Source: a virus. From it: 45,403 nt of DNA. This document shows, in pieces, positions 4,055 to 34,188 of the stretch (positions are counted from its first letter, which is position 1; each line of letters begins with the position of its first letter). The notes beneath the pieces are model-generated. The model was given only the letters and a program-made list of their open reading frames with translations. It made no database searches and was not told the origin of the DNA. The position numbers were made by a program, and so were the translations under genes. The DNA is taken from IMG/VR virus record IMGVR_UViG_3300029258_002861, positions 1 to 45,403 of that record, one strand, 5' to 3'.

Positions 4055-5491
4055 ATGGCGTTCAAACTTGCCGAAGCGTACGTGCAATTGAGTTCCCGGG
4101 GACTCGCCTCGGTGAACCGGGGGCTCGGTTCGATCAGGGGCAGTCTGGCGGCCCTGATCAGTCCGGCGGGGATGGTTGCAGGGGCCATTGCCGGTATCGG
4201 AGGCGGCCTAACGGTCAAGTCGATGATCACGCTCGCCGCCCGGGCCGAGACGCTGGCAGTCTCTTTCGAGGTCCTGTTGGGCTCGGCGGAAAAGGCCAAG
4301 CAAATGGTCGAGGATATCGGCCAATTCGCGGCCCGAACTCCGTTCGAGCAAGGCGAGCTTGGCGCGGTCACCAAGCAGTTGCTTGCGTTCGGCGTTGTCC
4401 AGGAACGCATCATTCCCACCATGCAGACGCTGGGAGACATTGCGGCGCTGTCCGGTGCCCGCATGAGTGACTTGGCCAGGATCTACGGCAAAGCGAAGGG
4501 AACCGGCGTTGTCATGACCGAGGTCCTCGACCAGTTCCTGGAGCGGGGAATTCCGCTCGGCCGGGAGCTTGCCAAGGTCCTGGGCGTTGCCGAAACCGAG
4601 GTGCGCAAGCTGGCGCCCACGGGCAAGATCACCTTTGGGATTCTCGAGGAAGCACTGGCGAATCTGACGAAAGAAGGCGGCCAGTTCTATGGCGGCATGC
4701 AGAAGCTCTCGAAGACCACGGCGGGCGTCTGGTCGACGTTCACGGGGAACCTGAAGGTGAGCCTTGGCAAGATCGGCGGGGCGATGATCGACGCTTTCGA
4801 TGTCCGGGCCATTGCGGCCCGGCTGGGGCAGTTTGCCGGGACGTTTTGGCAGCGCTTCGGAAGCAAAATCAAGGCCGCGATGGACACCGTGGGGGTCGTA
4901 GTCAAATCGATTGTGATCGGCTTTCGGCTTCTGGCATCAGCGGCCAGGGAAACTTTTGGCGCGCTCATGGGCAGCGATCTGGGCGGATGGCTCGGAGATC
5001 TCGGCAACAGGTTCGCGGAGTTTGTCGGCACGGTGAACAGCTTCATGAGTGTGATGCTCGGCAACTGGACATTGACTTGGGAATTGATGAAGTTGATGGC
5101 CCGCGATGCGATCCGGGAAATGACAGGACGCATGAAAGCCTTCTTCTCCGGCGAAGAGTTCCAGGGTGGCGAATCGGCCAGAACCCATTTCCTCAAGATG
5201 TACTTTCGGGCAGAACTCGAAAAAGCCAAGCGGCCGCCAGATCAGAGCGCAGCAAGCGGAAAGCAACCGGCGAACCAACCGTTTGCAGCGGCAAGGGGCC
5301 CGGCCGGCGGCTTCGGGATCACAACCCTTACCGGCCTGACCGAGCAGATGCAATCGGAGGCGGGCAAGCGCATCGCCGAACGAACGGCCAACGCCACGGA
5401 GCGCACGGCGGCGGCCGTGGAGCAGATGGCGGCAAGGACACCACAACGAGCGGGAACCGCTGCGGGCGTGCCGGTCCCCGCATGGAGCTAG
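4055..5491 (+). CDS. Tape measure protein (short)
   Basis: A 478-aa protein with the classical tape measure layout: helical start, Gly/Ala-rich hydrophobic segment (AGMVAGAIAGIGGGLTV, about residues 39-56), a region SFEVLLGSAEKAKQMVEDI matching the conserved tape-measure domain, further hydrophobic helices at about 283-300 and 325-345, and a low-complexity C-terminus rich in Ala, Gly, Pro and Thr. With the usual rule of about 0.15 nm per residue, the tail should be only about 70 nm long. Position directly after the chaperone genes supports the call. Confidence 0.85.
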   Translation: MAFKLAEAYVQLSSRGLASVNRGLGSIRGSLAALISPAGMVAGAIAGIGGGLTVKSMITLAARAETLAVSFEVLLGSAEKAKQMVEDIGQFAARTPFEQGELGAVTKQLLAFGVVQERIIPTMQTLGDIAALSGARMSDLARIYGKAKGTGVVMTEVLDQFLERGIPLGRELAKVLGVAETEVRKLAPTGKITFGILEEALANLTKEGGQFYGGMQKLSKTTAGVWSTFTGNLKVSLGKIGGAMIDAFDVRAIAARLGQFAGTFWQRFGSKIKAAMDTVGVVVKSIVIGFRLLASAARETFGALMGSDLGGWLGDLGNRFAEFVGTVNSFMSVMLGNWTLTWELMKLMARDAIREMTGRMKAFFSGEEFQGGESARTHFLKMYFRAELEKAKRPPDQSAASGKQPANQPFAAARGPAGGFGITTLTGLTEQMQSEAGKRIAERTANATERTAAAVEQMAARTPQRAGTAAGVPVPAWS

Positions 5492-5494
5492 ACC

Positions 5495-6385
5495 ATGGTA
5501 GCGACAGCGTTCCACGAACTGGCGGGCTCGGGCGCCTCGCATCATTCGATCGATCAAGCCAACTCGGCGACCCGATACTTCCTTTGCAAATGGTCGGATC
5601 GTACCACCTTCATCGAAGAACTGGCCACGTTGCAGCATCCGGAGTGGGGACCGGAGTGCGCCATCAACAGCATAGCTGTCGAGCCGTTTTCCCCGCAGCA
5701 GCCGCCCTCTGTCGTGGTCAACGATCCCACCACCGATGATGTCTCCTACCTTCAGAATGCAGAATTCAACTGCCTGATCACGGCACAGTACAACACGGAT
5801 TTCTCTTTGGCGCCGTGGCCTTGCGACATCGACAAGCCGACGATCCCGGCAGGCACGGAACTGGTGATGCGCACGCGGGCCTCCTCGCAAGTGATTCGGA
5901 TCCCGCCGCGCAAGTTTCTTTCGGCCGACAATCCGAACAAAAATCCGGCGGGGTATGTCCCCGAGCCGGACGGTCAAGAGGGGCGGATCATTCTCCCCAC
6001 CACCGAGTTCCAACTCCAGTGGTATTACGTCGACGAACCGCCGATCGCGACGTGGGAAGAGGATTACGTCGGCCGGGTCAACGAGTCGACCTTTCTGGGC
6101 GCCGAAGCCGAAACCCTGCTCTTTGTCGGTTTTGACATTGAACCTTCGACCCAGTTCCTGATCAGCGATCCGTTCTGTTTCACGGTAACTTGCCATTTCC
6201 GCAAGCGGCGGATCGTGGACGGTTCGGACATCTACGGCTGGAACCATGAGTTCGAACTCCAGGGCTGGACCCGCGTGCAAATGCGGGACGGCAACAATTC
6301 TGCGGTGGACCGGTATCAAAAAGTAGATTTTGCCGACATGTTCGTGGAGGCGTGCTGTTCCTCATCAAGCTCAAGCGGATCCTAA
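5495..6385 (+). CDS. Tail-tip (distal tail-like) protein with Cys-Ser tail
   Basis: It begins three bases after the tape measure stop, the usual place of the distal tail protein. The 296-aa product is beta-rich with several Trp/Tyr/Phe clusters (FQLQWYYVDEPPIATWEEDY, IYGWNHEFELQGWTRV) and ends in CCSSSSSSGS. No enzymatic motif is visible. I do not recognise a named family; the tail-tip role is from gene order. Confidence 0.5.
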   Translation: MVATAFHELAGSGASHHSIDQANSATRYFLCKWSDRTTFIEELATLQHPEWGPECAINSIAVEPFSPQQPPSVVVNDPTTDDVSYLQNAEFNCLITAQYNTDFSLAPWPCDIDKPTIPAGTELVMRTRASSQVIRIPPRKFLSADNPNKNPAGYVPEPDGQEGRIILPTTEFQLQWYYVDEPPIATWEEDYVGRVNESTFLGAEAETLLFVGFDIEPSTQFLISDPFCFTVTCHFRKRRIVDGSDIYGWNHEFELQGWTRVQMRDGNNSAVDRYQKVDFADMFVEACCSSSSSSGS

Positions 6386-6388
6386 GCG

Positions 6389-7210
6389 ATGCCCTTTCGA
6401 TTGCCTCATCCTCGACCCAGATCGCCGTACACCCCGGCAAGCCAACGCGAAATGGTTCGCGAGATTGAAGCCGCGCGAAACTGGGAAGGCGATGGGCCGG
6501 TCTCCTTCGACACCGATGGGACGGCGGTGCGGTTCGATGTCCATCATCCCCCCAAGATCGCTCTGTTCGAGATCACCGACGAGTGGGAGGCATGCGAGAG
6601 TTGTAGCTCCGGGTCAAGCTCAAGCTCCGGGTCAAGCTCAAGCAGCAGTTCGTCCAGTTCATCCGGCGTCTCGGGCCGCGCTTTCCCAGACGGTTGGTGT
6701 CGGGCGTTGGCGACACCGCTCTATTACTACGACGGGTCGCAGCAATGGGATCAGGAACATGAAGGGGTTGAGCGGTACATCTTTCATCCGGCCGGATATC
6801 CGCCCAACGAACGCGATGACCTGATCCTCGAAAAGATCTTCTTGCCGCGTTTCGCGATCGGCGATTGGGTGTGGTGCATCTTCAACCAACAATCGGGTTG
6901 GTGGGAAATCATTCATGGGTTCGAAGATGAGTGGAGGTTCGAGCTTAAGACCGATTTGGACGTCGATGATAGTGGCGACGTTCCGCAAGGCGGCACGGCG
7001 ACGGCCTACCTGCGACAGGCTTCCACGGGCGCCTGTGAATGGTCGCCTTGCGATGCGATCACGTTCACGGTCTGCGATTCGATGGGCATGTTCGAGGGCA
7101 CGGGGCGCGACTCGGGCGGACTCAACGGCCGGGGCGTCGGTTCCCGGGGCGTCTGCAAGTACTTTGCGGATTCCCAGTCTTGGGAAATCATCCAAATGGA
7201 GTGCCCGTAA
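6389..7210 (+). CDS. Tail-tip protein with internal poly-Ser linker
   Basis: A 273-aa protein with two parts joined by a long Ser/Gly linker at about residues 69-92, preceded by CESC. The N-terminal 65 residues are Pro/Arg rich; the C-terminal part is beta-like and rich in Trp (FAIGDWVWCIFNQQSGWWEI), with several Cys. The linker resembles the C-terminal tails of other proteins here, as if two genes with the preceding tail had fused. Its stop overlaps the next start at 7210. Function unknown; probably virion tip. Confidence 0.5.
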   Translation: MPFRLPHPRPRSPYTPASQREMVREIEAARNWEGDGPVSFDTDGTAVRFDVHHPPKIALFEITDEWEACESCSSGSSSSSGSSSSSSSSSSSGVSGRAFPDGWCRALATPLYYYDGSQQWDQEHEGVERYIFHPAGYPPNERDDLILEKIFLPRFAIGDWVWCIFNQQSGWWEIIHGFEDEWRFELKTDLDVDDSGDVPQGGTATAYLRQASTGACEWSPCDAITFTVCDSMGMFEGTGRDSGGLNGRGVGSRGVCKYFADSQSWEIIQMECP

Positions 7211-8244
7211 TGCCAGGCTGGTGGCCATGCCCGGAATGCTGCGCGCGTCCCTGCGTGATTTTCGAGGATGATTTTGAGCGCGGTGACAGTACCGATCTCG
7301 GTGGCAGTTGGGACGAAAAGGTTGGCGATTCTGAGATTGATGACAACGAGCTATTGATTCCAGCCAGCGGGCTGGTGATCGCCACAAAGAAGCATCCCCT
7401 CAACACGCCCACGTGCCAGGTGACGGCCACGCTGACCAACATGCAGGCGGGCCGGAAATACCGGCTGATCTGCAACTACGACTATGACGACGGCAGCTAT
7501 ATCTTCGCGGAGTACGAGACCACCGGAGCCGGCACGGGCACAATGAAAGTCGGCTCGAACAATGGTTCGGACGACTCGATTCTTGATGAGTATCCGGCCG
7601 GGTTCGTGGTCGATGGCGACCTGGAATTCTCTCTCTGCCGGACGCTGAACGGAATCTGGTGCACGCTGCAAGACGAGCCCAACTGGGTGGGCATTGGGGC
7701 CTGCGTGGGTGACACGGGCGGCCGTTACGTCGGCGTCATGAACGCGAGTGCCAGCGGAGACATCACGGTGGATGACTTCGTGTTTATCGAGCACGATCAC
7801 ACCAACCGGCAGTTGCCGCACTGTGCGTGGTGTCCCTGTGAGGGTGGCGGCGATCCGTGGAGCAAGGTCGGTGTGTGCATTCCAAAGGAGTTGTTTCTTT
7901 TGGTCTTCGCCGGCGAGGACTGTGCCTGCATGGATCAAACGTCCTGCATCTTGACGTTTGACGACGCGACACGCGCGGGGCCTTTCGCATGGAAGGGCAC
8001 GATCGTTGTGCCGGGATGCGAGACCTACAACTTCATTTTCTCGTGTACCAGCGACGGGACAAGCGTTAAGCTGTGTACGGACAAGTGCGAGGACTGGGGC
8101 GACATGTGCACTGAGGGATATTTGGGTGGTGAACCGATCAGTGCGTCTTGGGACCCGCTCGAACTCTGGTTTCACGGCGAAGGGTGCTTGCCCGTCAGCG
8201 TGGAAGACCCGAATTGTACGATGTATTTTCGCGTGACCGAATGA
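7210..8244 (+). CDS. Cys-rich tail-tip protein with LamG-like domain
   Basis: Start ATG 7210 overlaps the preceding TAA. The 344-aa product opens with a Cys cluster (MPGWWPCPECCARPCVIFE), followed by a concanavalin/LamG-like sandwich of about 200 residues (FERGDSTDLGGSWDEKVGD, then DITVDDFVFIEHD), then a second Cys-rich half (CAWCPCEGGG, CACMDQTSC). More than twenty Cys residues point to metal binding or a disulfide-stabilised extracellular particle protein. A carbohydrate-binding tip role is plausible but inferred. Confidence 0.5.
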   Translation: MPGWWPCPECCARPCVIFEDDFERGDSTDLGGSWDEKVGDSEIDDNELLIPASGLVIATKKHPLNTPTCQVTATLTNMQAGRKYRLICNYDYDDGSYIFAEYETTGAGTGTMKVGSNNGSDDSILDEYPAGFVVDGDLEFSLCRTLNGIWCTLQDEPNWVGIGACVGDTGGRYVGVMNASASGDITVDDFVFIEHDHTNRQLPHCAWCPCEGGGDPWSKVGVCIPKELFLLVFAGEDCACMDQTSCILTFDDATRAGPFAWKGTIVVPGCETYNFIFSCTSDGTSVKLCTDKCEDWGDMCTEGYLGGEPISASWDPLELWFHGEGCLPVSVEDPNCTMYFRVTE

Positions 8245-8696
8245 ACTGCGACGACTGCGAACTACCAGAGAGCGGCGAAAAGAGCTACGACTGTCCGCGC
8301 TTGAATTGTCGAATGATCCCCCACGATTGCGAGCTATACCGCACGCGGCCGAACTACCGACGGGCGTGGGACGACGGCCGCGGGCCCGGGCAAGTGTTCC
8401 CGCCGGTCAAGCAAACAGCCCGCCCGAAGCCGGTACCAGCCGGAGGGCCTGGAACGGAACTCAAGAAGTTACTGGCCACGATGCGAGTCAGGTCGAGTGG
8501 CTGCAAGTGTAATCATCGAGCGGCCGAGATGGATCGGCGCGGCGCGGCCTGGTGCCGTGAACATCTCGACCAGATCACGAGCTGGCTCTTAGGCGAAGCG
8601 CGGAGACGAAACTACCCACTCGCGAATCTTTCCCGGCCGGCGGTCAAGGTGTTGATCCGTTGGGCAATTCAACGATCGAAACGGAGGCAAAGCTGA
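8241..8696 (+). CDS. Hypothetical Cys-containing protein, 151 aa
   Basis: ATG 8241 overlaps the upstream stop (ATGA). It carries an N-terminal Cys set (MNCDDCELPESGEKSYDCPR), a Pro-rich middle, then a Cys pair in SGCKCNHRAAEMDRRGAAWC, with a basic helical C-terminus. The Cys pattern suggests one or two small zinc or Fe-S sites. It is the bridge between the tail genes and the glycan island; the next gene's start overlaps its stop (TGATG at 8694-8698). Function unknown. Confidence 0.5.
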   Translation: MNCDDCELPESGEKSYDCPRLNCRMIPHDCELYRTRPNYRRAWDDGRGPGQVFPPVKQTARPKPVPAGGPGTELKKLLATMRVRSSGCKCNHRAAEMDRRGAAWCREHLDQITSWLLGEARRRNYPLANLSRPAVKVLIRWAIQRSKRRQS

Positions 8697-9793
8697 TGCA
8701 AATCTTTCAACTCGGTTACCCCGGGGGAATGGGCGGCGCTAACACGGAGTGCTGGCACACCGTGAAACTTTGGCGGGAGGCCGGCTGGGATGTGACGCTG
8801 ATCCCGACTTGGGGCGAAGATCATGCCTGGCGGGCGAAGCTCGAATCAATCGGAGCGGAGACCATCCAGGTGGAGCGCGTCAAGCCGCAGGACCCGAAGG
8901 CGCCCCGGCGGCCCCGGCTGCATGACGTACCCGGCCTGCCGGGCTCGATTGTGGTGGGGATGTGCAACCGGCACGTTTCCGGCGTGATCGATGAGCTACG
9001 TGCCATCGGCTGCAAAATCGTGTGGGTGAACTGCATGACGTTCATCGACGAACCCGAGCACCGGGCGACGGTCGACAACGGGCCGGCGGATGCGTACATC
9101 TTCCAGTCGGAGTACCAGCGATCGCGATTGGAACCGCGCCTGCGACGATATGGATACCGCCCCGATCAGGGCTTCTTGATCCGAGGCGCTTTTGATTGTG
9201 CGGAGTGGCCCTTCCGACCACGGTCGCACAAGGCCAGCGGGGAGTTTGTGGTGGGGCGATTGTCTCGGCCGGATGCCGACAAGTGGTCCTCGAATCATTG
9301 GGCGATCCTCGCTGGGATCCCGTTCAAGGAACGGCGGGCCCTCTGCATGGGCTGGAATGGGGTCACCGAAAACAAGTGCGGGCGCGCGCCTTCCTGGGCG
9401 GAGTGTCTGCCTCCCCAGGAAATCGACACCCGCGAATTCTTGGCGCGTTGCCACTGCCTGCTGCACGTCAACGGCGGCGCCAAAGAGAACTGGCCGCGGG
9501 TCGGTCTGGAAGCCATGGCCACCGGCGTGCCGGTGATCGCCCAAAACAAGTGGGGCTGGCGGGAAATGATCGATCACAAGCGAACCGGATTTCTGGCCAA
9601 CAATGATGCCGAACTGGCCTACTACGCGGCCGACCTGGCGCATCGCGAAATTCTCCGCTTGAATATCGCGGAGGCCGCCCGAGCGCGTCTCGAGGAGTTG
9701 GCCGAACCCGGCCGCCTGATCAGCGGGTGGCGGCAGGTGTTTGAGTTTTGCCGGGCTCGGGGTGGATACGTCAAACCTGCGATGGTGATCTGA
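8696..9793 (+). CDS. Glycosyltransferase, family 4 type (GT-B)
   Basis: Start ATG 8696, with GGAGG at 8682-8686. The 365-aa product starts with a Gly-rich nucleotide-sugar loop (QLGYPGGMGGANTECWHTV) and has the GT4 C-terminal signature around LLHVNGGAKENWPRVGLEAM followed by ATGVPVIAQNKWGWREMI, i.e. the E-x7-E motif region that binds the sugar nucleotide. It would transfer a sugar to an acceptor in the cytoplasm. First enzyme of the glycan island; TGATG-type overlaps on both sides indicate one transcript. Confidence 0.8.
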   Translation: MQIFQLGYPGGMGGANTECWHTVKLWREAGWDVTLIPTWGEDHAWRAKLESIGAETIQVERVKPQDPKAPRRPRLHDVPGLPGSIVVGMCNRHVSGVIDELRAIGCKIVWVNCMTFIDEPEHRATVDNGPADAYIFQSEYQRSRLEPRLRRYGYRPDQGFLIRGAFDCAEWPFRPRSHKASGEFVVGRLSRPDADKWSSNHWAILAGIPFKERRALCMGWNGVTENKCGRAPSWAECLPPQEIDTREFLARCHCLLHVNGGAKENWPRVGLEAMATGVPVIAQNKWGWREMIDHKRTGFLANNDAELAYYAADLAHREILRLNIAEAARARLEELAEPGRLISGWRQVFEFCRARGGYVKPAMVI

Positions 9794-10635
9794 TGAATCC
9801 CGTCTATCTCGCAATCTGTGCGATCGTGCGGAACGAAGCGCCCTACATCGGGGAGTGGATTGAGTTTCATCGCCTGGTGGGAATCCAGCGATTCTACCTG
9901 GTTGATGACGGATCCACGGACGGCACTGCGGATGAAATCCGCTGGCACGATCGGGAAGATATCGTGCTGCAACGGTATCGCCACGACGATTCATTCCGCT
10001 GCCCCGAGGATGTCCCCTTCCGTGCTACGCATCAGGTGCTGGCCTTCAATCGATTCATCCAAGAACGCAAAGATGAGGCTGTGTGGTGCGCGTTCATCGA
10101 CGTAGATGAATTCTTGTACCACGTCGAAAAGGACGATATCCGCGATCCGCTCTTCGAGGAAATTGAGTCGCGCGGTGCGGCCGGGCTCTTCGTCAATTGG
10201 TTGATCTTCGGTTCCAACGGCCACCGAACCAAGCCGCCGGGTCCCACCATCGCGGCCTACACGAGGCGCGGCCACCTTGGCGCACCAGAGCCCACAGGCC
10301 GGCACGGCAAGCTGATTGCCCGCCTCGATGCGCTGGCCCATTTCGGCGCGTACGGCTCGCATAACGCGACTTTTCGCCAGGGCCATGCGATCAACGAAAC
10401 CGGCAGAGCGGTTCGCGGACCGACCAATCCGGAGCCTTCGGTCAATCGGTGGCGGGTCAATCATTACTACCATCGCTCGTCCGCGGAGGCCCGCGCGCGG
10501 GTTCGGGCGGTGGACAATAACTGTGTTCCCGGCTATGCTAAGACGAGAGCCCGACTGCGGCGCCACGACCTGAACGACGTCGACGATCGCGAGATTCTCA
10601 GATTTCTCCCGCGACTGATGGAGGTTACGGCGTGA
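9793..10635 (+). CDS. Glycosyltransferase, GT2/GT92-like (GT-A)
   Basis: 280 aa. It shows the GT-A start IVRNEAPYIGEWIEFH, the nucleotide-binding VDDGSTDGT at residues 37-45, and the metal-binding FIDVDEFLY at 101-109. This combination (NEAxYIxEWxxxH, DDGSxD, DVDEF) is typical of the GT92 / Glyco_tranf_2_4 group. A late VNHYYHRSSAEA segment also matches family members. Acceptor and donor unknown. Overlaps both neighbours by a few bases. Confidence 0.8.
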   Translation: MNPVYLAICAIVRNEAPYIGEWIEFHRLVGIQRFYLVDDGSTDGTADEIRWHDREDIVLQRYRHDDSFRCPEDVPFRATHQVLAFNRFIQERKDEAVWCAFIDVDEFLYHVEKDDIRDPLFEEIESRGAAGLFVNWLIFGSNGHRTKPPGPTIAAYTRRGHLGAPEPTGRHGKLIARLDALAHFGAYGSHNATFRQGHAINETGRAVRGPTNPEPSVNRWRVNHYYHRSSAEARARVRAVDNNCVPGYAKTRARLRRHDLNDVDDREILRFLPRLMEVTA

Positions 10636-11402
10636 AATACACGCAGTTTCTTTGCTTCGAGGTCGGGCGCGAATGCAACCTGGCCGGCTATCATCAGGAC
10701 TGCCCTTCTGGCACTCTGGATCGCTACGGCAGCCTGGATGTGTCTACGGCGATCACGGACAAGCAGGTCGTCGATTCTGCCGTCGAGGCGTACGCGGCAC
10801 TCGGGTTTGCCGGCAACGTGGCCTGGCATTACTACAATGAGCCCATGCTCCAATGGGATCGGCTCCAGGCGCTGATGGCCGCGATCCGGGAAAAAGTCAC
10901 CTCCGCTCGGTTTACCTTGTGGACCAACGGCACGTTGTTGCACAAAGGCACCGCGGGCCTGGATTTGCTGGATCAAATCTGGGTCACCAACTACCGCGGC
11001 CGGGATTGGAATTGGTTGCACGAGAGGGTCCCCCGGGTCGTTGTCTTCGCGCCCTATCTGGACGAACGACGGCGACCGCTCGAAAAAGACAAGCTGGATT
11101 TCTGCCTCCGTCCCTACAACGAGTTGATCGTCGACAACTACGGCAACGGGCATTTGTGCTGTGCCGATTGGCGGGGGGCCTGCGTCTTGGGAAACATCCG
11201 TGACGCGGATGGTTTTGCGGGCGTGGTGGAACGATTCCAGGCCGCTCGCAACCAGGCTAGTCAACAGCCGATGCCGGACGATGCGCCGAATGTTTGCAGG
11301 AGGTGCCGCATTCGGCAACGCCACATTGCGGACCTCGTTCCCGCCGTTCAGAAGATCACGGAGGAAGACAAGCCATGGATCACAAAGCAGCCAATTCTCT
11401 AG
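10632..11402 (+). CDS. Radical-SAM/SPASM-like protein with altered cluster motif
   Basis: A 256-aa protein resembling SPASM-type radical SAM enzymes: VGRECNLAGYHQDCPSG near the start, TLWTNGTLL in the middle of the barrel, and a SPASM-like Cys region GHLCCADWRGACVLGNIRD followed by CRRCRIRQ. The usual CxxxCxxC that holds the SAM cluster is not present; the spacing from Cys14 to Cys23 is different. It may be a degenerate 'twitch' protein or bind its cluster unusually. Its stop was created inside a 51-bp tandem duplication (11350-11451). Confidence 0.6.
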   Translation: MKYTQFLCFEVGRECNLAGYHQDCPSGTLDRYGSLDVSTAITDKQVVDSAVEAYAALGFAGNVAWHYYNEPMLQWDRLQALMAAIREKVTSARFTLWTNGTLLHKGTAGLDLLDQIWVTNYRGRDWNWLHERVPRVVVFAPYLDERRRPLEKDKLDFCLRPYNELIVDNYGNGHLCCADWRGACVLGNIRDADGFAGVVERFQAARNQASQQPMPDDAPNVCRRCRIRQRHIADLVPAVQKITEEDKPWITKQPIL

Positions 11403-11451
11403 AAGATCACGGAGGAAGACAAGCCATGGATCACAAAGCAGCCAATCCTCT
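11350..11451 (+). repeat. 51-bp tandem duplication carrying RBS and start codon
   Basis: 11350-11400 and 11401-11451 are the same 51 bases with one mismatch. Each copy contains GGAGG and an ATG (11375 and 11426), that is, a complete translation start for the next gene. The upstream gene stops at the junction (TAG 11400-11402). Confidence 0.9.
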
Positions 11452-12151
11452 CGGAGTAGTCTTCGTTTCCTGGCAGATCCCCGAGCATCGGTTGCGGGAT
11501 CATTTCGCGTGGAACGAGCGCCTCTATCGGCCGGGCGGCGTGCGCGTCTTCGCCGTGACCGATCGCGAATACGAAGTCCCCGACTACGCCCGGTGCGTGA
11601 TCTTTCCCAAAACGCGCCTGCCGATATTTGGCGGCCGATATCGATTCGCGCTGACCCGGACCAAGAACGCCGGCATCCGCGCGGCGATCGCGGCGGGCTG
11701 TTCCCCGATTATCTGTTCCGATGTGGATATCGCTTTCGAGCCGGCGGCGTGGATGGCGGCCCTGGCGACCACGGACCGGACGGCCGCAGTGCCGCTCTAT
11801 CGTATGAGCTTGTCATCGCAATGGGCAGAGCGGGAAAACTCGTACGAAGAGGCCCCCCTGGCAGAAGGCACGATTACGATGACGGCCCATAACTGGGAGC
11901 GGATCCAGTACTGCGAGCGCCAGTGGGGTTACGGGGGGGATGATGGAACAATCATCGATCGCATTGCCCATGCGGATCCGCCGATTCGCATCACGCGGGT
12001 TGGCCACGTCTACCACATGGCCCACGTCGACGGCGCCTGCCAAAAGGAATTTTGCGGACGGACGGATCATTGGAATCGTGACAACGGGCTGAACCCCGAA
12101 AACTTCAGGCGCAACGCTAGGCACGGCGGGCGGGGAAAGGTGGTATTGTAA
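11426..12151 (+). CDS. Glycosyltransferase (galactosyltransferase-like, GT-A)
   Basis: Start could be ATG 11375 (first copy of the duplication, overlapping the upstream gene) or ATG 11426 (second copy, 24 bases past the upstream stop); I prefer 11426, 241 aa. Motifs: TKNAGIRAAIAAGCSPIICS followed by DVDIAFEP, the metal-binding D-x-D; then RQWGYGGDDGTIIDRI, like the 'W(G)xEDxD' acceptor-side motif of GT7-type galactosyltransferases. It probably adds a hexose to the same glycan as its neighbours. Confidence 0.7.
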   Translation: MDHKAANPLGVVFVSWQIPEHRLRDHFAWNERLYRPGGVRVFAVTDREYEVPDYARCVIFPKTRLPIFGGRYRFALTRTKNAGIRAAIAAGCSPIICSDVDIAFEPAAWMAALATTDRTAAVPLYRMSLSSQWAERENSYEEAPLAEGTITMTAHNWERIQYCERQWGYGGDDGTIIDRIAHADPPIRITRVGHVYHMAHVDGACQKEFCGRTDHWNRDNGLNPENFRRNARHGGRGKVVL

Positions 12152-12153
12152 CG

Positions 12154-12804
12154 ATGCGGGCCACACATCAGCCGAAGTCGCGGCGAATGAAAATATGCGT
12201 AGCGGGCAACGGGCCCACGGCCAAGGGCCTCGGGAAAGAGATTGACGCCTGTGATTGTGTGGTTCGCACCAAAGCATGGTGGCACTACGGCGCGGAACAC
12301 GCCGGCCAGAGGGTGGATGCTGTTGCCTGGTTCGGCACCCAGCAAGAAGAATGGTTCGCGCTCAACAGCCGAGCGGGCGTGCCCCAATGCGAGCACTGGT
12401 TGAGTTGGTGTCCGCGACAATTCCAAGAATGTCCGCCTGGGTTTGCGAGAGGCGAACTCTTCTTTCGCTACATCACCTTCGATTTGCCGGTGGCGCAGTT
12501 GGGCAATCACCAATGGCTGCGCCTCTGCAATCATCTTGGCCGGCACCCCTCGACCGGAATCGTGGCGGTGATGATGGCGCTTGCGAGGTGGCCGACTTGT
12601 GAGTTGGTGTTGGCGGGTTTCGACGCGACCATACCCGGCGAGCCAACCTACCACGACGCTCGACACCCGGTGTGCGAGGATCTGCATGCCCACGATATGA
12701 TTGCGGAGAAAAAGGCGTTGGCTCAAATTGCGGAAGGATCGTGGTTGGGGGAGCCCTGCAAGGCAAAGCTGACCTGGCTGCATCAGCCGAAGATCGAGGG
12801 ATGA
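12154..12804 (+). CDS. GT29-like sialyltransferase
   Basis: 216 aa. The segment KICVAGNGPTAKGLGKEID (residues 13-31) followed by ACDCVVRTKAW has the form of the sialyl motif L of family GT29 (VxGNGxxxxxxxGxxIDxxDxVxR). HPSTGIVAVMMALAR (131-145) and LVLAGFD match motif S, and HAHDMIAEKKAL near 178-189 matches the 'HDxxxE' motif VS. The enzyme should transfer a sialic-acid-type sugar from its CMP donor; the donor can be made by NeuA and NeuB encoded downstream. GT29 is mainly eukaryotic, so this is notable. A start at ATG 12187 is also possible. Confidence 0.75.
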   Translation: MRATHQPKSRRMKICVAGNGPTAKGLGKEIDACDCVVRTKAWWHYGAEHAGQRVDAVAWFGTQQEEWFALNSRAGVPQCEHWLSWCPRQFQECPPGFARGELFFRYITFDLPVAQLGNHQWLRLCNHLGRHPSTGIVAVMMALARWPTCELVLAGFDATIPGEPTYHDARHPVCEDLHAHDMIAEKKALAQIAEGSWLGEPCKAKLTWLHQPKIEG

Positions 12805-14210
12805 CAATGGCGAGAATCCTGCTGGTCGTCTACGACAACGATTCCCAGATCGGCTTCTTTCCGATGGGCACGGCGGCCCTGGCCGCCTATTGTCGCCAAT
12901 GCGGAATCCAGGTGGACATCTACAGCCAGGACATCCACCACCACCCCGAGACGCACCTCACGGAGCATTTGGATGCCGCCCATTACGGCGTTGTTGGGTT
13001 GAGTTTTATCGGGGCTTACTACCCGTATCGCAAAGCCAAGACAATCGCCACGGCCATCCATGCCGCAAAAGACCGGCCCTTTTTCGTGATTGGCGGCCAC
13101 GGCCCAACCCCCGAGCCCGAGTACTTCTTGCGATTGCTCGGCGCGGACGCGGTGGTGATGGGGGAGGGCGAGCAAACTTTCGTCGAACTGATCTTCGCCC
13201 TGGCGGCGCAATCCAGTCTGGAAGAGATCGCCGGGCTTGCTTACCGCGTCGATGACCGGGTCGTGATCAACCCGAGACGAAAGCCGATCAACGAGATCGA
13301 CGATTTGCCGATACCGGCGTACGACAAATTTCCGATGGAAGTCTACCGACTTCGCCGCGACGCGGCCCATGTCCCCCGCATCGGCAACCGGTTTTCGATC
13401 CAGATGCTCTCCGGGCGGGGCTGCAAATTCAACTGCAATTTCTGCTACCACATCGATCCCGGCATGAGGCTCCGTTCACCCAGGGCAATCGTTGACGAGA
13501 TGAACCACCTTTACGACCGCTGGCGAATCCAGCATTTCATGTTCTACGACGATCTGCTGATGGAGTCGGAGGCCCGCACCATGGAACTCTGCGAGGCGTT
13601 CATTCGCTCGGGGCCGCCCGATATGACCTTCACTTGCCAAGGCCGGCTCAACTACGCGGTGCCTGAGGTCATGGGGCTGATGAGTCGGGCCGGCTGCGCC
13701 TACATCTACTACGGCGTCGAGTCGTTCAACGATGATGTCCTGCGGACGATGAGAAAGGCCCTGACCACGGACCAGATTGTGTGGGGAGTGGAAAATACCC
13801 GCAAGGCCGGAATACGTTTCAGCCCGAATATGATCTTCGGCAACATCGGGGAGACACGAGAGCACTTGGAAAACAGCGTTCGATTCCTGCTCTTGCACGC
13901 CGACTGCGCCCAGCTTCGGGCGATCAAGCCGGTGACGCCCTACCCGGGATCGCCACTCTATGACTATGCGATCGAAAAGGGCTTGCTTGAGGGGCCGGCG
14001 GATTTCTACGAACGCAAGCACATCAACACGGATCTGCTTTCAGTCAACTTCACGCCATTGCCTGATGAGGAATTCTATCTGGCGTTGCATCAGGCCAACG
14101 AACGGATCGTTGGCAGCTACTGCTTGCAACTTCGTCGCGTTTACAGTCAACAGTTGCGGCGGCTGTATTGCGACAAGGACCCATCATTTCGAGGATTCAG
14201 ACACGTATGA
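12801..14210 (+). CDS. B12-binding-domain radical SAM enzyme
   Basis: Start ATG 12801 overlaps the upstream stop. The 469-aa product has an N-terminal cobalamin-binding-like Rossmann domain (HYGVVGLSFIGAYYPYRKA, FFVIGGHGPTPEPEYFL, VVMGEGEQTFVEL), then the radical SAM core with CKFNCNFCYH (CxxxCxxC at residues 208-215), and YYGVESFNDDVLRTM, NMIFGNIGETREH and VTPYPGSPLYDYA, all typical of the B12-rSAM family (methylation, ring contraction and similar reactions at unreactive carbons). In a glycan locus it may modify a sugar. Substrate unknown. Confidence 0.85.
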   Translation: MTMARILLVVYDNDSQIGFFPMGTAALAAYCRQCGIQVDIYSQDIHHHPETHLTEHLDAAHYGVVGLSFIGAYYPYRKAKTIATAIHAAKDRPFFVIGGHGPTPEPEYFLRLLGADAVVMGEGEQTFVELIFALAAQSSLEEIAGLAYRVDDRVVINPRRKPINEIDDLPIPAYDKFPMEVYRLRRDAAHVPRIGNRFSIQMLSGRGCKFNCNFCYHIDPGMRLRSPRAIVDEMNHLYDRWRIQHFMFYDDLLMESEARTMELCEAFIRSGPPDMTFTCQGRLNYAVPEVMGLMSRAGCAYIYYGVESFNDDVLRTMRKALTTDQIVWGVENTRKAGIRFSPNMIFGNIGETREHLENSVRFLLLHADCAQLRAIKPVTPYPGSPLYDYAIEKGLLEGPADFYERKHINTDLLSVNFTPLPDEEFYLALHQANERIVGSYCLQLRRVYSQQLRRLYCDKDPSFRGFRHV

Positions 14211-14878
14211 ATGAGCTTATCGAGCGATACCGAAAGCTGTACAGCGGCGTGATCTACGACGCGCTGGTATTTGACTTGCACTATCGGCCCGCCTCAGTAG
14301 TCATGCCTGGTCTAGTATCCCGGCTGGCGGGTCCGCGGGAGCCCCTAATCGGCCCCGCGTTCACCTGTCGAGGGCGGCGCGTGCGAGCGGGAGATGACGT
14401 AGGGAAGCTGGAATCGATCCGGCTTGACATATTCTCGCAACTCCCGAGTGGCTCGGTGATGGTGATTGACACGGAGGGAGACGAGGGCGTTGCCCATTTC
14501 GGCGACGTGTCGGCCTTGATTGCCCATACGGCCGGGGTGGCTGGCATTGTGATCGACGGATACACCCGGGACATCGATGCTATCGATGAGGCGGGCGTGC
14601 CGTTATTTGCGCGTGGCGCCCGACCGGTCGACGCTTACGGCAGGTGGGCCCTCGTGGAAAAAGGGAAGGCGCTCACGTTGAGTGAGGCGGGGGTGTCGAT
14701 ATTCCCGGACGATTTGGTGTTTGCCGACGGCGACGGCGTTCTGATCATTCCGCACGACCGGGTTGCTGATGTGCTTGACCCAGCGGAACGCCGGGCGGCC
14801 AACGAGGATGCTATTCGGGCTGCTATTAGGGCGGGCGAACCAATCAAGGACATCTATCGGAGGCTCGGGCGATGGTAG
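14207..14878 (+). CDS. RraA / HMG-aldolase family protein
   Basis: Start ATG 14207 overlaps the upstream TGA. The 223-aa product matches the RraA-like fold: YSGVIYDALVF at the start, a substrate-loop GPAFTCRGRR, GSVMVIDTEGDEGVAHFGDV, then HTAGVAGIVIDGYTRDIDAI, with the Gly-x-x-R-D type active site (G..TRD). Family members are class II pyruvate aldolases (4-hydroxy-4-methyl-2-oxoglutarate type) or RNase E inhibitors. Next to NeuB, an aldolase acting on pyruvate-derived sugar acids, or making pyruvate, would fit. The specific reaction is not known. Confidence 0.8.
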   Translation: MNELIERYRKLYSGVIYDALVFDLHYRPASVVMPGLVSRLAGPREPLIGPAFTCRGRRVRAGDDVGKLESIRLDIFSQLPSGSVMVIDTEGDEGVAHFGDVSALIAHTAGVAGIVIDGYTRDIDAIDEAGVPLFARGARPVDAYGRWALVEKGKALTLSEAGVSIFPDDLVFADGDGVLIIPHDRVADVLDPAERRAANEDAIRAAIRAGEPIKDIYRRLGRW

Positions 14879-15804
14879 AGCTTGTGGCGGAGGTAACCAC
14901 CAACCACATGGGCAACCTCAACGTCTTGTTGGCGATGGTCGACGCGGCTGCCAGGGCCGGGGCCGATTCGATCAAGATGCAAAAGAAGGACGTGGAGACG
15001 TTCTATTCTCGCGAAAAGCTGGACGCCCCATACCTCAGTCCCTACGGCGCGACGTATCGCGAGTATCGCAAGATGTTCGAGTTCAATGCGGTGGATTGGC
15101 AGCGCTTCGACAAGCGTTGTCGGGAGCGTGGCCTGCCCTGGTTCGGCACCGGGCAAGACATTCCTTCCCTGGCGTTTTTGGTCGCCCAATCAGAGGACGG
15201 GCTGCAACGGTACAAGGTCTCTTCGTCGAACGCACGCAACCAAGAGTACCTCCAGGCGATGGCCCACATGCTGAACGCTGATTCGGAAATCGTGCTCTCT
15301 GTCGGCGGCTCGACGCTGAAGGATATCGCAACGGCTCTTGGTGTCCTTCGGAAGTTCAAGCGGATTTGGCTCTTGCATTGTGTGGCTCAGTATCCCTGCC
15401 CCGTGGCGGACTTGCGCTTGGGCAATATCCAGGAGCTTGGCCGACAGTTTGGCACGGACCGGATCCGCGTCGGCTACTCCGGCCATGAGGAAGGTTGGGA
15501 ACCGTCGTTGGTGGCGGCGCGGCTTGGCGCCGAGATGATCGAACGGCACTTTTGCCTGTCTCGCCATTCGTTCGTGCATCACATCGAATGCAGCTTGACG
15601 CCGGATGAATTTGCGGCAATGCGAAAGGCGATTGAGAGGAAAGACCCTTGTCCCGTGCTACCGCACGAGGCGTACCGCGTTGAATTTGGAATGTCCGCGG
15701 AGGAAAGCATTTTCTTGGAGCGGCAAACTTATGCAAACGATCGACTTGGCCTTGAATCCCGATTGGCGGATCGTCGCGTTCGTGCATGCCAAGGGGCACA
15801 GTGA
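14872..15804 (+). CDS. neuB: N-acetylneuraminate synthase-like (NeuB family)
   Basis: 310 aa; ATG 14872 follows GGAGG at 14859-14863. The barrel shows VAEVTTNHMGNLNVLLAM (EIGxNHxG-type catalytic start), AGADSIKMQKKD, then YKVSSSNARNQEYLQAM, LSVGGSTLKDI, LLHCVAQYPCP and VGYSGHEEGW, all typical of NeuB/SpsE-type synthases that condense phosphoenolpyruvate with an N-acyl hexosamine into a nonulosonic acid. The C-terminal SAF (antifreeze-like) domain of classical NeuB appears to be missing; the last 25 residues overlap the next gene in another frame, so the end may be shortened. Confidence 0.85.
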   Translation: MVELVAEVTTNHMGNLNVLLAMVDAAARAGADSIKMQKKDVETFYSREKLDAPYLSPYGATYREYRKMFEFNAVDWQRFDKRCRERGLPWFGTGQDIPSLAFLVAQSEDGLQRYKVSSSNARNQEYLQAMAHMLNADSEIVLSVGGSTLKDIATALGVLRKFKRIWLLHCVAQYPCPVADLRLGNIQELGRQFGTDRIRVGYSGHEEGWEPSLVAARLGAEMIERHFCLSRHSFVHHIECSLTPDEFAAMRKAIERKDPCPVLPHEAYRVEFGMSAEESIFLERQTYANDRLGLESRLADRRVRACQGAQ

Positions 15805-16444
15805 ACGTCTGCCTCACAAGAACTTGAGGATCCTGGGAGGCGTGCCCTTGGTGTGCCATGCCATCCGCAACGCCTTGCAGGCGCGGCGAATAGACGCCGT
15901 GGTGATCGATTCGGAGGATCACGAGATCCTTGCTGTTGGGGAAGCGGCGGGCGCCATCCCGCTGGCAAGGCCCTTGCACCTGGCGGATAACAACACGACT
16001 GGAGATGATCTGGCGTATTGGCAAGCGCAGCAGCTACCGCAAGCCCACACGATCATCCAGGCCGTTCCAACGTCGCCATTCATTTCGCCGCAGTCGTACG
16101 ATTCCGCGATTGAGCTGCTCCGCAGGAACAAACTAGATGCGGTGGTTGGCACGCGAACCGAGAGTCTCTATACGTGGCGCTATGGCAGGCCGGACTACTT
16201 GGTGGGCGAGCGAACGCCGAACAGCCAGGACCTTCGGCCCACCACCTACGAGACGACGGGGCTCTACGTGATGCGGCGGGCGTTCGTCCTCACGACCCGT
16301 CGCCGGATCAATCCGAACAACTGCGCGGCGTATGCCCTGTCGCGGATTGAGGCAATCGACATCAACACCTTGCGCGATTTGGACTTCGCACAGTTGGTCT
16401 GGCGGGGCCTCCAATCGCAGCCTAACAACGATCGGAAATACTGA
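15731..16444 (+). CDS. neuA: CMP-sialate synthetase-like (NeuA family)
   Basis: Start ATG 15731 with GGAG 15716-15719; 237 aa, overlapping neuB by 74 bases. VAFVHAKGHSERLPHKNLRI near residues 15-34 is the CTP-binding PARGxSKRxxxKN loop in a slightly changed form; further PLVCHAIRNAL, VVIDSEDHEILAV, IIQAVPTSPFI and TTYETTGLYVMRR match the cytidylyltransferase family. It should activate the nonulosonic acid made by NeuB as a CMP-sugar for the GT29-like transferase upstream. Confidence 0.85.
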   Translation: MQTIDLALNPDWRIVAFVHAKGHSERLPHKNLRILGGVPLVCHAIRNALQARRIDAVVIDSEDHEILAVGEAAGAIPLARPLHLADNNTTGDDLAYWQAQQLPQAHTIIQAVPTSPFISPQSYDSAIELLRRNKLDAVVGTRTESLYTWRYGRPDYLVGERTPNSQDLRPTTYETTGLYVMRRAFVLTTRRRINPNNCAAYALSRIEAIDINTLRDLDFAQLVWRGLQSQPNNDRKY

Positions 16445-17022
16445 TGCTAAAGATCCTTGGAGTCGGTCTCCCGCGAACCGGTACCCAGTCGCTTTCGGAC
16501 GCCCTCGAAATTCTGGGGCTCAACTCAATCCATCATGCGCCGGAGCGATTGGATCCGTGGCCGGACGCCGCGACCGAAGCAACGCCCAATTTCCGCGTCT
16601 ACAGTGATGTTGACGCCGTCATCGATGCGCCGGCGTCGTACTTCTACCGCGAACTCGGCGACGCTTACCCCGGTCTGCGCTACATCCTGACCGTCCGCGA
16701 CAAGGATACGTGGTGGCGGAGCGTTCGCACTCACACTTTGCGGATCTATGCAGAAACGCGGTACGCGAGGACCGAATACACCGACCGGCTTCACGCAATG
16801 TTGTTCGGTTCGGGGGTCCCGAACAAATTCCTGTGGCAGCGCAATTTCTGCCTCTGGAATGAGCGGGTTGCGCATGAGCTTGCCGGGCCGCCGTTGCTGG
16901 TCATGGACATCACGGCCGGAGACGGGTGGCGGCTTCTCTGCGATTTCTTGCGGCTGCCGATTCCCGATTGCCCGTTTCCCCACGCCAACGCCACAGTACT
17001 CCCATGCGAGGCAGAATCTTGA
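16444..17022 (+). CDS. Sulfotransferase (PAPS-dependent)
   Basis: 192 aa; start overlaps the upstream TGA. GVGLPRTGTQSLSDAL at residues 6-21 is the 5'-phosphosulfate loop that binds PAPS (PRTGTxSL), as in the Sulfotransfer_4 group; YILTVRDKDTWWRS near the middle is the 3'-phosphate-binding region (RDP/RD..S). It probably puts sulfate on a sugar of the island's glycan. Its last 19 bases overlap the next gene. Confidence 0.8.
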   Translation: MLKILGVGLPRTGTQSLSDALEILGLNSIHHAPERLDPWPDAATEATPNFRVYSDVDAVIDAPASYFYRELGDAYPGLRYILTVRDKDTWWRSVRTHTLRIYAETRYARTEYTDRLHAMLFGSGVPNKFLWQRNFCLWNERVAHELAGPPLLVMDITAGDGWRLLCDFLRLPIPDCPFPHANATVLPCEAES

Positions 17023-17660
17023 TCGGCGCATTGTCGGCGCATGCGTATTCCGACCGTCGAGGAAACTGCCTGGCCACTTGGATCCCGGCAGCCGCGCAAC
17101 TCGGCATGGAGTCGTTCTTTCTTCTCGGCGATCCATCTTTGAGCCATCCCAACCAGATCGGCCGTGAACTCTGGTTGCCGGTCCCGGATGATTACGACCA
17201 CCTGCCGCAAAAGACGCGGGCATTTTGCCAATCGGCGCTGAACCGATCGGGTTGGGACTACCTCTTCAAATGCGACGATGACACGGCGATCGCCGTGAGC
17301 AGGCTCGCCGCGTACGAGGCGCACGGCCGCGACTACATCGGCGCCGAGTGGAGGGCGGGTGTGAACTACGGCAGCGGTGGAGCCGGTTACCTGCTGTCCC
17401 GACGTGCGGCTGAGGTGGTGGCCGAGAAATTGACGTTCCGGATCGGGGCAGAGGATCTGCTCGTGGGAACAGTCTTGCGGGAGGCAGGAATCCGGCTCTC
17501 GATTGAGCGGCGATTCGTTCCCTGGGGAAACATGGATCATCGCCCCCAGCCGGGCAACGATCTGATCACGGCGCATGCCGTGGGGCGGGATGTGTTCGAG
17601 GCGGTCAATCGGGAGATCGACCGGTTGTCGATTGCGAGCGTCGGCTCTTCGTCCGGTTGA
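17004..17660 (+). CDS. Glycosyltransferase, GT31 galactosyltransferase-like
   Basis: Start ATG 17004 lies inside the end of the sulfotransferase gene; 218 aa. ILIGALSAHAYSDRRGNCLA at the start and DYLFKCDDDTAIAV (metal-binding DDD at 91-93) followed by YGSGGAGYLLSRRAAE are the core motifs of beta-1,3-galactosyltransferases (GT31, 'E/K..DDD' and 'GgGyvlS'). It closes the glycan island, converges with a minus-strand gene, and ends in a Ser-rich tail (VGSSSG) like several virion proteins. Confidence 0.75.
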   Translation: MRGRILIGALSAHAYSDRRGNCLATWIPAAAQLGMESFFLLGDPSLSHPNQIGRELWLPVPDDYDHLPQKTRAFCQSALNRSGWDYLFKCDDDTAIAVSRLAAYEAHGRDYIGAEWRAGVNYGSGGAGYLLSRRAAEVVAEKLTFRIGAEDLLVGTVLREAGIRLSIERRFVPWGNMDHRPQPGNDLITAHAVGRDVFEAVNREIDRLSIASVGSSSG

Positions 17661-32348: not shown

Positions 32349-32822
32349 ATGAACGATGGTGTCTTGCAGTCCGACATTTTCGAGAACCCGCGAAAGATCC
32401 TGTCGGACGTGCAATTGATCGCCTCGCAGCGCTCGCGCATCTCGGATGAGGTGATGGAAGCGTTGGTCCGGCGGGCGGCGGCAGTCGTCGAAGAGGTCGA
32501 GCCGGGCAGCCGCGAGTTCGACCGCATCGCCCGTTTCCTCCAACGGGAGCGGAAACTTGAAGACGCGGAGAAACGCACGCGATTAGAGATCGCGAAGATT
32601 TTGCTTGGCGTGATGAGCCCCCACGTGGCGACGGCCGTGCAAGTGAACATCGACACCAAGCAGGCTCACGACTCAGAGAATCATGATGATTTCGTTGCCC
32701 GAAAGCTCGCCGAGCTTGACGCCATCTTGGGAGTCGCCGGAGAAGGCGGCGGCCCGGATGGGGCGGGAGATTCTCTGCAATCCGGGAATGGTCAAGCGAC
32801 AGGCCCGGCGGAATCTGCTTGA
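32349..32822 (+). CDS. Probable small terminase subunit
   Basis: 157 aa from ATG 32349; TTG 32286 could add 21 residues. All-helical and charged (FDRIARFLQRERKLEDAEKR) with LIASQRSRISDEVMEALVRR near the start, which could be the DNA-binding helices; Gly-rich end. It overlaps the large terminase gene. Called terminase small subunit only because of its place, size and helical make-up. Confidence 0.5.
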   Translation: MNDGVLQSDIFENPRKILSDVQLIASQRSRISDEVMEALVRRAAAVVEEVEPGSREFDRIARFLQRERKLEDAEKRTRLEIAKILLGVMSPHVATAVQVNIDTKQAHDSENHDDFVARKLAELDAILGVAGEGGGPDGAGDSLQSGNGQATGPAESA

Positions 32823-34188
32823 CTTCGCGCGGGTCACGATGCTGGATTACTCGCCCAACTGGCATCACCGGCTCTTGGCTCGTTATCTCGACGATTGGAT
32901 TGCCGGGCGGATCCGCAGGTTGGCGATCACCATGCCACCGGGCCACGGCAAATCGGAGCTTGTCAGTCGGCGCGCGCCAGCCTTTATTTTCGGCCGCAAT
33001 CCCAACGCTCGAATCATCGCGGCCAGCCACACCCTGGAACTTGCCCAGACCATGAGCGAGGACGTGCAGGAGATTATGGACACGCCCGATTATCTGGAGT
33101 TGTTCGGCCGGCGATTGCCGAGCACCGCGGAAGCGGCTCGCCGAACACTGAGTTTCTTTCGCGTCGCCGGGGGGCGCGGCTATTATCGGGCCGCCGGGAT
33201 TGGGGTGGGCATTTCCGGGATGCGATTCACCCACGGCATCATCGACGATCCGATCAAAGATGACGAGGCGGTTTCGCCGACCAATCGCGAAAAGGCTTGG
33301 CGCTGGTACGCCAAGGTATTTCACACGCGCCAAGCGCGGCACGCATCAATTCTAATCACCATGACCCGCTGGCATCGCGACGATCTACTGGGGCGAATTC
33401 TCAAACAGGCGACTGAACAAAATAGCGAAGAATGGACGGTCCTCAATCTACCTGCATTGCGCCCACCGGAGCGAACCCATCCGGAGGATCCGCGACAAGA
33501 AGGTGAGGCGCTTTGGCCTTGGTTCCGCAGTGAAGTGGAATTGGAGCGGATCAAGAAACTCGACCGCCACGCATTCGCCGCGCTCTACCAGCAAGCCCCC
33601 GGGGACGCCGGCGGCTCCGAGTGGCCGGGATCCTACTTTGGGCCGTGGATCTGGTGCGAGCCGGACGACTGGCCGGAATCGTTCGACGTGCGGGCCATCG
33701 CCATCGATCCTTCCATGGGCAAGGGCGACAGGCACGGCGACTACTCGGCGATTGTCTACGTCGGCCTCAAGAACGGTCTGATTTACGTGGACGCGGACCT
33801 CGAACGTAGACCACCTCACGAAATCGTGCGCGATGCCCTCGGCATGGTGATGCGTTACAAGCCGCAGTACATCGGCATCGAGTCCAACGGTTTTCAGGAA
33901 ATGCTCTTGGCTGAGTTTCGTCGTCAGGCCGGCGGTCGCCTGACAGACTACGTAGCCGGCGTGCCGCTCTCGGCGATCCCCAACAAAGAAGCCAAGACGC
34001 TGAGAATCCGCCGGCTTGGCCACGCGATCGTAGATCGTCTGCTGCGCTTCAAGCGGGATTGCCAAGGCTGCCATTTACTGGTAGATCAATTGATGGATTT
34101 CCCCAACGGCGATCACGATGACGGCCCGGATGCCCTGGAGATGGCCATCCGCTTGCCGTCCATTTCGCGGATAGGAGCAATGACATGA
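32758..34188 (+). CDS. terL: Terminase large subunit
   Basis: 476 aa from ATG 32758 (GGAGAAGG before it); ATG 32683 would overlap the upstream gene much more. ATPase domain: Walker A MPPGHGKSE (59-67), AASHTLELA, Walker B THGIIDDP with catalytic acid, coupling motif ITMTRWH. Nuclease domain: AIDPSMGKGDRHGDYSAIV, IGIESNGFQ and DHDDGPDALEMA carry the RNase H-like acidic residues. It cuts and pumps DNA into the prohead. Confidence 0.95.
   Translation: MGREILCNPGMVKRQARRNLLDFARVTMLDYSPNWHHRLLARYLDDWIAGRIRRLAITMPPGHGKSELVSRRAPAFIFGRNPNARIIAASHTLELAQTMSEDVQEIMDTPDYLELFGRRLPSTAEAARRTLSFFRVAGGRGYYRAAGIGVGISGMRFTHGIIDDPIKDDEAVSPTNREKAWRWYAKVFHTRQARHASILITMTRWHRDDLLGRILKQATEQNSEEWTVLNLPALRPPERTHPEDPRQEGEALWPWFRSEVELERIKKLDRHAFAALYQQAPGDAGGSEWPGSYFGPWIWCEPDDWPESFDVRAIAIDPSMGKGDRHGDYSAIVYVGLKNGLIYVDADLERRPPHEIVRDALGMVMRYKPQYIGIESNGFQEMLLAEFRRQAGGRLTDYVAGVPLSAIPNKEAKTLRIRRLGHAIVDRLLRFKRDCQGCHLLVDQLMDFPNGDHDDGPDALEMAIRLPSISRIGAMT

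Follow-up and report, generated by a model that had tools for sequence, protein, structure and literature searches.

A virus record of 45,403 bases, analysed over its whole length and called the window here, encodes a small protein of phage origin that very probably belongs to glycosyltransferase family 29 (GT29), the family responsible for sialylating animal glycans. The protein is probably a compact, soluble, single-domain enzyme using a CMP-activated nonulosonate that would be made by enzymes of its own gene cluster. This view is founded on the observed family matches, the predicted fold, the motifs, the phage setting, and the linkage with genes of the NeuB, NeuA and RraA types.

The Phage Window and Its Glycan Cassette

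The window carries terminase large subunit, portal, head-morphogenesis and tape measure genes (Table 1), which bears out the phage origin given by the first-pass annotation. A glycan cassette of about 9 kb, at about 8.7-17.7 kb, lies on one strand, 3' of the tail genes and on the strand of these genes. Its order is GT4, GT2/GT92, SPASM, GT7C-like, GT29 and B12 radical SAM, followed by RraA-like, NeuB, CMP-sugar synthetase, sulfotransferase and GT31-like. Several adjacent genes share a few bases at their ends, such as the GT29 and radical-SAM genes at 12801-12804, and these overlaps are consistent with a single operon. The GT29 gene had been placed beside NeuA and NeuB; the shared neighbourhood stands, but the genes are not directly adjacent, as the B12 radical-SAM and RraA-like genes intervene, and NeuB starts 2.07 kb downstream of the GT29 gene. 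The GT7C-like protein is 38-41% identical to proteins of two related loci (L003 and L004), with conserved gene order, and the sulfotransferase is 48% identical to the neighbour of GT29 in L004. Every NCBIfam match of the B12 radical-SAM protein is far below its cut-off.

Table 1. Genes of the window discussed in the text; all positions are those of the window.
Feature	Position	Strand	Evidence and remarks
Tape measure protein	4055..5491	+	Pfam TMP_3, E 4.4e-26
GT4-type glycosyltransferase	8696..9793	+	Pfam Glycos_transf_1, E 2.9e-10 (ORF 8660-9793); start approximate
GT2/GT92-like glycosyltransferase	9793..10635	+	Pfam Glyco_tranf_2_4, GT92 (ORF 9748-10635); start approximate
SPASM-domain protein	10632..11402	+	Pfam SPASM, 24.3 bits; relatives in L003-L008
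Glycosyltransferase-like, weak GT7C likeness	11408..12151	+	Glyco_transf_7C, 19 bits (cut-off 23); start uncertain
GT29-family glycosyltransferase	12154..12804	+	216 aa; Pfam PF00777, PDB profile matches, model, fold search, relatives
B12-binding radical-SAM protein	12801..14210	+	Pfam Radical_SAM, B12-binding (ORF 12672-14210)
RraA/HMG-aldolase-like protein	14207..14878	+	Pfam RraA-like, E 2e-23 (ORF 14168-14878); start approximate
NeuB-type nonulosonate synthase	14872..15804	+	310 aa, without SAF; Pfam NeuB, E 1.7e-50, residues 22-256
CMP-sugar synthetase (NeuA/PseF type)	15731..16444	+	237 aa; CTP_transf_3, E 1.1e-14 (15605-16444); start is first ATG of conserved part
Sulfotransferase (Sulfotransfer_4)	16444..17022	+	Pfam, E 7.1e-38
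GT31-like (Galactosyl_T) glycosyltransferase	16926..17660	+	Pfam, 27.6 bits (cut-off 23); start probably later
Terminase large subunit	32683..34188	+	PHROG 38, E 1.6e-105

Reading Frame and Sialylmotifs

The GT29 reading frame is open throughout, and the L-, S- and VS-like strings attributed to it in the first-pass annotation were all three found. A second possible start, at an internal methionine (12187), gives 205 aa and agrees with the start in relatives. Alignment with GT29 references shows that the sialylmotifs of the protein follow the order L, S, III, VS, and its strings are CVAGNGP (residues 15-21, including GNGP at 18-21), GKEIDACD (27-34), HPSTG (131-135), AGFD (154-157; GFD at 155-157), YHDA (166-169) and H180-x4-E185. 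Motif III is loose, being YHD (166-168) instead of HYW. Cysteines stand at the L- and S-motif places (C15 and C149), the first of which is missing in the L004 relative. No type II membrane anchor was seen in the protein, its highest 19-residue hydropathy mean being 1.62; such an anchor is also absent in bacterial GT29 proteins as treated in PMC5811610 and hence is not family-defining.

Evidence for Assignment to GT29

The protein scores 30.6 bits against Pfam GT29 (PF00777; E 2.9e-7, cut-off 23), which is its sole Pfam match at E up to 10. Three full-length relatives, which were found with GT29 queries, are all above the cut-off (L004, 31.3 bits; L009, 34.2; L010, 30.6), and a truncated copy in L003, omitted from the tree because the contig ends inside its gene, scores 17.3 bits. 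On a reference profile built from eight further GT29 proteins, four from huge phage and four from plasmids, the window protein reaches 29.6 bits, well beyond chance; the best score among 900 shuffles (300 each of three phage proteins) is 2.9 bits.

A profile of five phage proteins, run against the PDB with hmmsearch at E up to 10, returned 15 distinct sequences, all of them sialyltransferases. All four animal GT29 groups, ST8Sia3 (E 7.6e-5), ST3Gal1 (6.8e-4), ST6Gal1 (0.0035) and ST6GalNAc2 (0.032), precede the GT42 enzyme CstII (0.14) in this ranking, whose E-values are modest. A narrower four-protein phage profile matched ST3Gal1 alone (E 0.01), and the window protein as a single sequence matched no sialyltransferase in the PDB. 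Neither PHROGs (best E 0.14) nor NCBIfam gave a significant family for it.

The AlphaFold2 model is of middling confidence, with a pLDDT of 76.9 and a pTM of 0.81, the other four of the five model versions being lower (pLDDT 50.7-64.1). Searched with this predicted model, Foldseek placed GT29 structures at ranks 1-16, led by 2wnf, 5bo6, 6apl and 6qvt (E 9.5e-6 to 3.5e-4), and the first GT42 structure at rank 17. The Pfam score above cut-off, the PDB profile, Foldseek and the eight-protein reference profile agree in assigning the protein to GT29, as first proposed, and the contrary outcome named at that time, a best match to GT42 or DUF115, was not seen: neither Pfam model is matched at E up to 10. 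The proposed structural check came out in part, as Foldseek ranks GT29 first but a second structural comparison, with VIA-align, ties GT29 and GT42.

GT29, GT42 and Related Folds

By VIA-align, the Z-scores of the model are 11.7-12.4 for CstII/CstI and 11.4-11.9 for ST3Gal1/ST6GalNAc2, a tie by the program's own rule; GT29 and GT42 alike give a Z of about 12 and an rmsd of about 3.5 over 170-188 aligned residues. A divergent GT42-type (CstII/CST-I-like) bacterial sialyltransferase, with much the same donor and chemistry, must be weighed on this account, and we hold it to be unlikely. The window protein scores 25.7 bits on a profile of four GT42 references from alphaproteobacterial plasmids, close to its score on the GT29 references, and its best match among plasmids (28.5% identity, E 0.01) is to a protein of Tritonibacter that Pfam places in CST-I/GT42 (36.2 bits) and weakly in GT29 (14.8 bits). 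The approximately unbiased (AU) test does not reject a tree in which the window clade joins GT42 (p 0.205). However, Pfam CST-I (PF06002) is unmatched by the window protein, as well as by L004/L003 (E up to 1) and L009/L010 (E up to 0.1), and the full-length relatives separate the families widely, with GT29 versus GT42 reference scores of 46.2 versus 7.2 bits (L004), 42.0 versus 2.2 (L009) and 52.6 versus 10.6 (L010). The PDB ranking by the five-protein profile, which puts GT29 before GT42, also argues for GT29, as do the Ser of PSTG and the Glu of the VS motif (H-x4-E); the latter is kept in the window protein, L004, L009, L010 and 8/8 GT29 references, compared with 1/4 GT42 references (by eye). 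The Tritonibacter protein had been considered as a GT29 relative; it was dropped on its Pfam assignment and serves as a GT42 reference.

In the unrooted 16-row tree, the phage clade and L010 stand between GT42 and the remaining GT29 proteins; of all rows other than these, a GT42 protein is the closest by path length. When the tree is rooted on GT42, the phage clade and L010 form the deepest GT29 branch. We read the window protein, from its sequence, as a deep-branching member of GT29 near the GT29/GT42 split, with GT42 as the minority option.

A protein of the MptE-like/DUF115 or pyrophosphokinase type, without sugar transfer, shares part of this fold. VIA-align gives a Z of 9.4 for an archaeal HPPK (MptE-like) and 8.9 for thiamin pyrophosphokinases, and MptE-like proteins adjoin the synthetase in two related cassettes. 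Such an identity is nevertheless highly improbable, given that Pfam PF01973 is unmatched at E up to 10, that 116-145 residues are aligned for the kinases against 170-188 for the sialyltransferases, and that the gene is located in a glycan cassette. Nothing for or against is drawn here from the other families that VIA-align listed.

The Donor Sugar

The neighbours and the motifs together point to a CMP-nonulosonate as the probable donor of the GT29 protein. A sialyl donor is likely on the same evidence; the acid transferred may also be a different nonulosonate. The best PDB matches of the window NeuB are sialic acid and pseudaminic acid synthases, aligned along the catalytic barrel, and the CMP-sugar synthetase matches NeuA in the PDB. 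Pfam lists no family beyond NeuB for this NeuB, which scores 166 bits against NCBIfam NeuB_NnaB (cut-off 400); the synthetase scores 90.6 bits against NCBIfam PseF (cut-off 205.7), its Kdo-synthetase matches being weaker. The NeuB proteins of the window, L004, L009 and L012 end earlier (297-310 aa) and have no SAF domain. A Pfam scan of 30 of the ORFs of the window showed no ManNAc-forming enzyme. Because of the missing SAF domain, the NCBIfam scores under cut-off and the absence of a ManNAc-forming enzyme from that scan, the sugar is described here simply as a probable nonulosonate.

The same features favour another CMP-activated acid as the substrate of a GT29-fold enzyme, either a Kdo-like acid or a new ulosonic acid produced by the SAF-less NeuB and the RraA-like aldolase. 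The synthetase is nearest to PseF yet far under its cut-off, with Kdo-synthetase matches besides, and in the close loci NeuB always has an RraA/HMG-aldolase-like gene as its partner. The GD/GExxA and TRD motifs, which are typical of metal-dependent pyruvate aldolases, are conserved in all three aligned sequences of the RraA-like protein; we know of no described role for an RraA-like protein in nonulosonate synthesis. On the other side, the best matches of NeuB remain sialic acid and pseudaminic acid synthases, and the amino sugar could come from host enzymes. This other acid is a tentative possibility, less probable than the nonulosonate; it overlaps the preferred explanation and differs from it in the sugar alone.

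Linkage Across Phages

Of the eight viral loci that a scan with NeuB queries from three phages gave, six are close (49-54% identity). RraA, NeuB and CMP-synthetase genes occur together in 6/6 close loci, as they do in the window, with the RraA-like gene beside NeuB in each of the six. GT29 is present in four of the six (L020, L022, L023 and L024), or 5/7 with the window included. Two of these contigs were first found through GT29 (L020 is the contig of L009, and L022 that of L004), so the independent count is 2/4 new contigs. The GT29 protein of L023 has 20.9 Pfam bits, which is under the cut-off, and 32.9 bits on the GT29 reference profile. The two more distant loci (L025 and L026; 30-32% NeuB identity) were excluded from the six-locus count; neither showed a GT29 by the profiles used nor an RraA gene, and in L025 a CMP-synthetase adjoins NeuB.

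In the two other close loci, L019 and L021, an MptE-like protein (30.0 and 33.9 bits, under the cut-off of 34.6) comes directly after the synthetase, and is followed by a terminase-like ORF (terminase by eye). A swap of the cassette transferase between GT29 and MptE-like proteins is possible. The MptE-like genes lie at 10641-11312 in L019 and 10650-11321 in L021, in cassettes with RraA and NeuB and with no GT29 found.

The placement of the cassettes differs. The L004 cassette lies between the large terminase and portal-like genes (portal by eye), that of L003 directly 3' of the terminase, and that of the window 3' of the tail genes. In L006 (6527-8726), GT92, FkbM methyltransferase and SPASM genes stand between an S49 head protease and a capsid gene, hinting at virion modification. 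A position among late genes would favour action late in infection, on the virion or the host surface. A broader proposal, that unrelated phages have in common a movable cassette of RraA-like, SAF-less NeuB and CMP-synthetase genes that makes an undescribed activated ulosonic acid, with an exchangeable transferase (GT29 or MptE-like) and a product decorating their own virion, is rather doubtful as a whole.

Searches for Further Relatives

A tblastn search of 50,697 phage records with the window, L009 and L010 proteins returned nothing, and the window protein alone yielded 0 relatives among 3 candidate stretches of viral contigs. Short-pattern scans of cellular genome contigs gave 0/35 candidates for the window protein and 0/118 for the five-protein alignment; as these scans rely on short patterns, absence from cellular genomes is not to be concluded. 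No relatives of the GT7C-like protein were found in viral contigs, nor of the L009 protein in plasmids. A Sinorhizobium plasmid (L018, 1314-2549) carries a 411-aa GT29-like ORF that is absent from the plasmid gene table.

Comparison with Known Systems

The first-pass annotation described the family as best known from animals, which understates present knowledge. Bacterial GT29 proteins were reported in 2018 by Petit et al. (PMC5811610), and a phage protein, A0A6J5NLG3, is already named 'Glycosyl transferase family 29' in the BFVD/UniProt listing. A GT29-like archaeal protein is among those listed in PMC4153887. With four GT29 proteins also in the huge phage LR756508.1, the novelty is smaller than first implied. 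In the literature on phage GT29 and nonulosonate transferases, a scope leaving bioRxiv and most subscription journals outside, we met neither unrelated phages in which a compact GT29 is linked to RraA, SAF-less NeuB and CMP-synthetase genes nor an exchange of the transferase.

The bacterial GT29 proteins, as set out in section 6 of PMC5811610, carry sialylmotifs L, S, III and VS and lack a transmembrane domain, and the window protein is alike in this. Examples here are the Pseudosulfitobacter protein WP_114294753.1 (L011) and the Paracoccus protein WP_176562763.1 (L013), the gene of the latter adjoining an acylneuraminate cytidylyltransferase gene in likeness to the window cassette. The four plasmid GT29 proteins are 333-511 aa long, whereas the phage protein has 205-216 aa, is divergent and branches outside them. 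The animal enzymes ST3Gal1, ST8Sia3, ST6Gal1 and ST6GalNAc2 have the predicted fold, the motif order and H-x4-E in common with the window protein; the identity is 14-21%, and the window protein is without a transmembrane anchor.

The huge phage LR756508.1 (L012), like the window, combines GT29 with a SAF-less NeuB, around which its four GT29 genes are arranged, but these proteins are far more canonical (93.8-111.6 Pfam bits), and no NeuA or RraA relative was found within the 18 kb examined. This public 484-kb record is unannotated; in its region 316000-334000, which is L012, the GT29 genes lie at 6025-6657, 8756-9439, 9420-10100 and 10097-10846, and a 299-aa NeuB at 6692-7591. Bacterial GT42 enzymes (CstII; L002, L015, L016 and L017) share the fold of the window protein, and the loci L002, L015 and L017 have a CMP-sugar synthetase among the neighbours, as in the window; they differ in a Pfam model that the window protein does not match and in the VS Glu, missing in 3/4 GT42 references. 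A gene of Azotobacter phage TayeBlu is annotated as an alpha-2,3-/2,8-sialyltransferase in PMC12772287, a name that suggests the GT42 type.

Proposed Mechanism and Meaning

NeuB and the NeuA-like synthetase are both encoded in the one-strand cluster of the GT29 gene. In the proposed route, NeuB would condense PEP with a host amino sugar or aldose to give a nonulosonate, a sialic-acid-like nine-carbon acid, which the NeuA-like synthetase would activate with CTP. The GT29 protein would then transfer the sugar from CMP-nonulosonate, with inversion, onto a glycan built by the neighbouring glycosyltransferases. The catalytic base would be H180 of the VS motif, by analogy with the animal GT29 enzymes. 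The protein presumably acts in the cytosol, and its acceptor would be a glycan on the virion or the host surface, the virion being a tentative choice between them.

If this is true, phages encode the final part of a pathway of the sialic-acid kind, including a GT29 of about 205 residues, and may run their own version of sialic-acid-type sugar chemistry. At about this length, the protein is among the smallest GT29s compared here, and its deep position near the GT29/GT42 split would bear on the origin of GT29, for which a bacterial origin via mitochondrial endosymbiosis is proposed in PMC5811610. It would also offer a soluble GT29 without a membrane anchor for assay. According to PMC12363180, the capsid and tail proteins of mycobacteriophages are glycosylated by enzymes that these phages encode themselves, and an acidic-sugar version of this virion glycosylation is a testable extension.

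Additional Observations on the SPASM Gene

A SPASM-domain gene is common to several phage glycan cassettes; L005-L008 have it, with no GT29 in the stretches examined. The N-terminus of the SPASM protein in the window, L003 and L004 reads ECNL...H..C, which is not the usual radical-SAM CxxxCxxC. The window has a 51-base tandem duplication (11350-11451; 2 copies, 98% match) where the SPASM and GT7C-like genes meet; L003 has these two as one fused gene.
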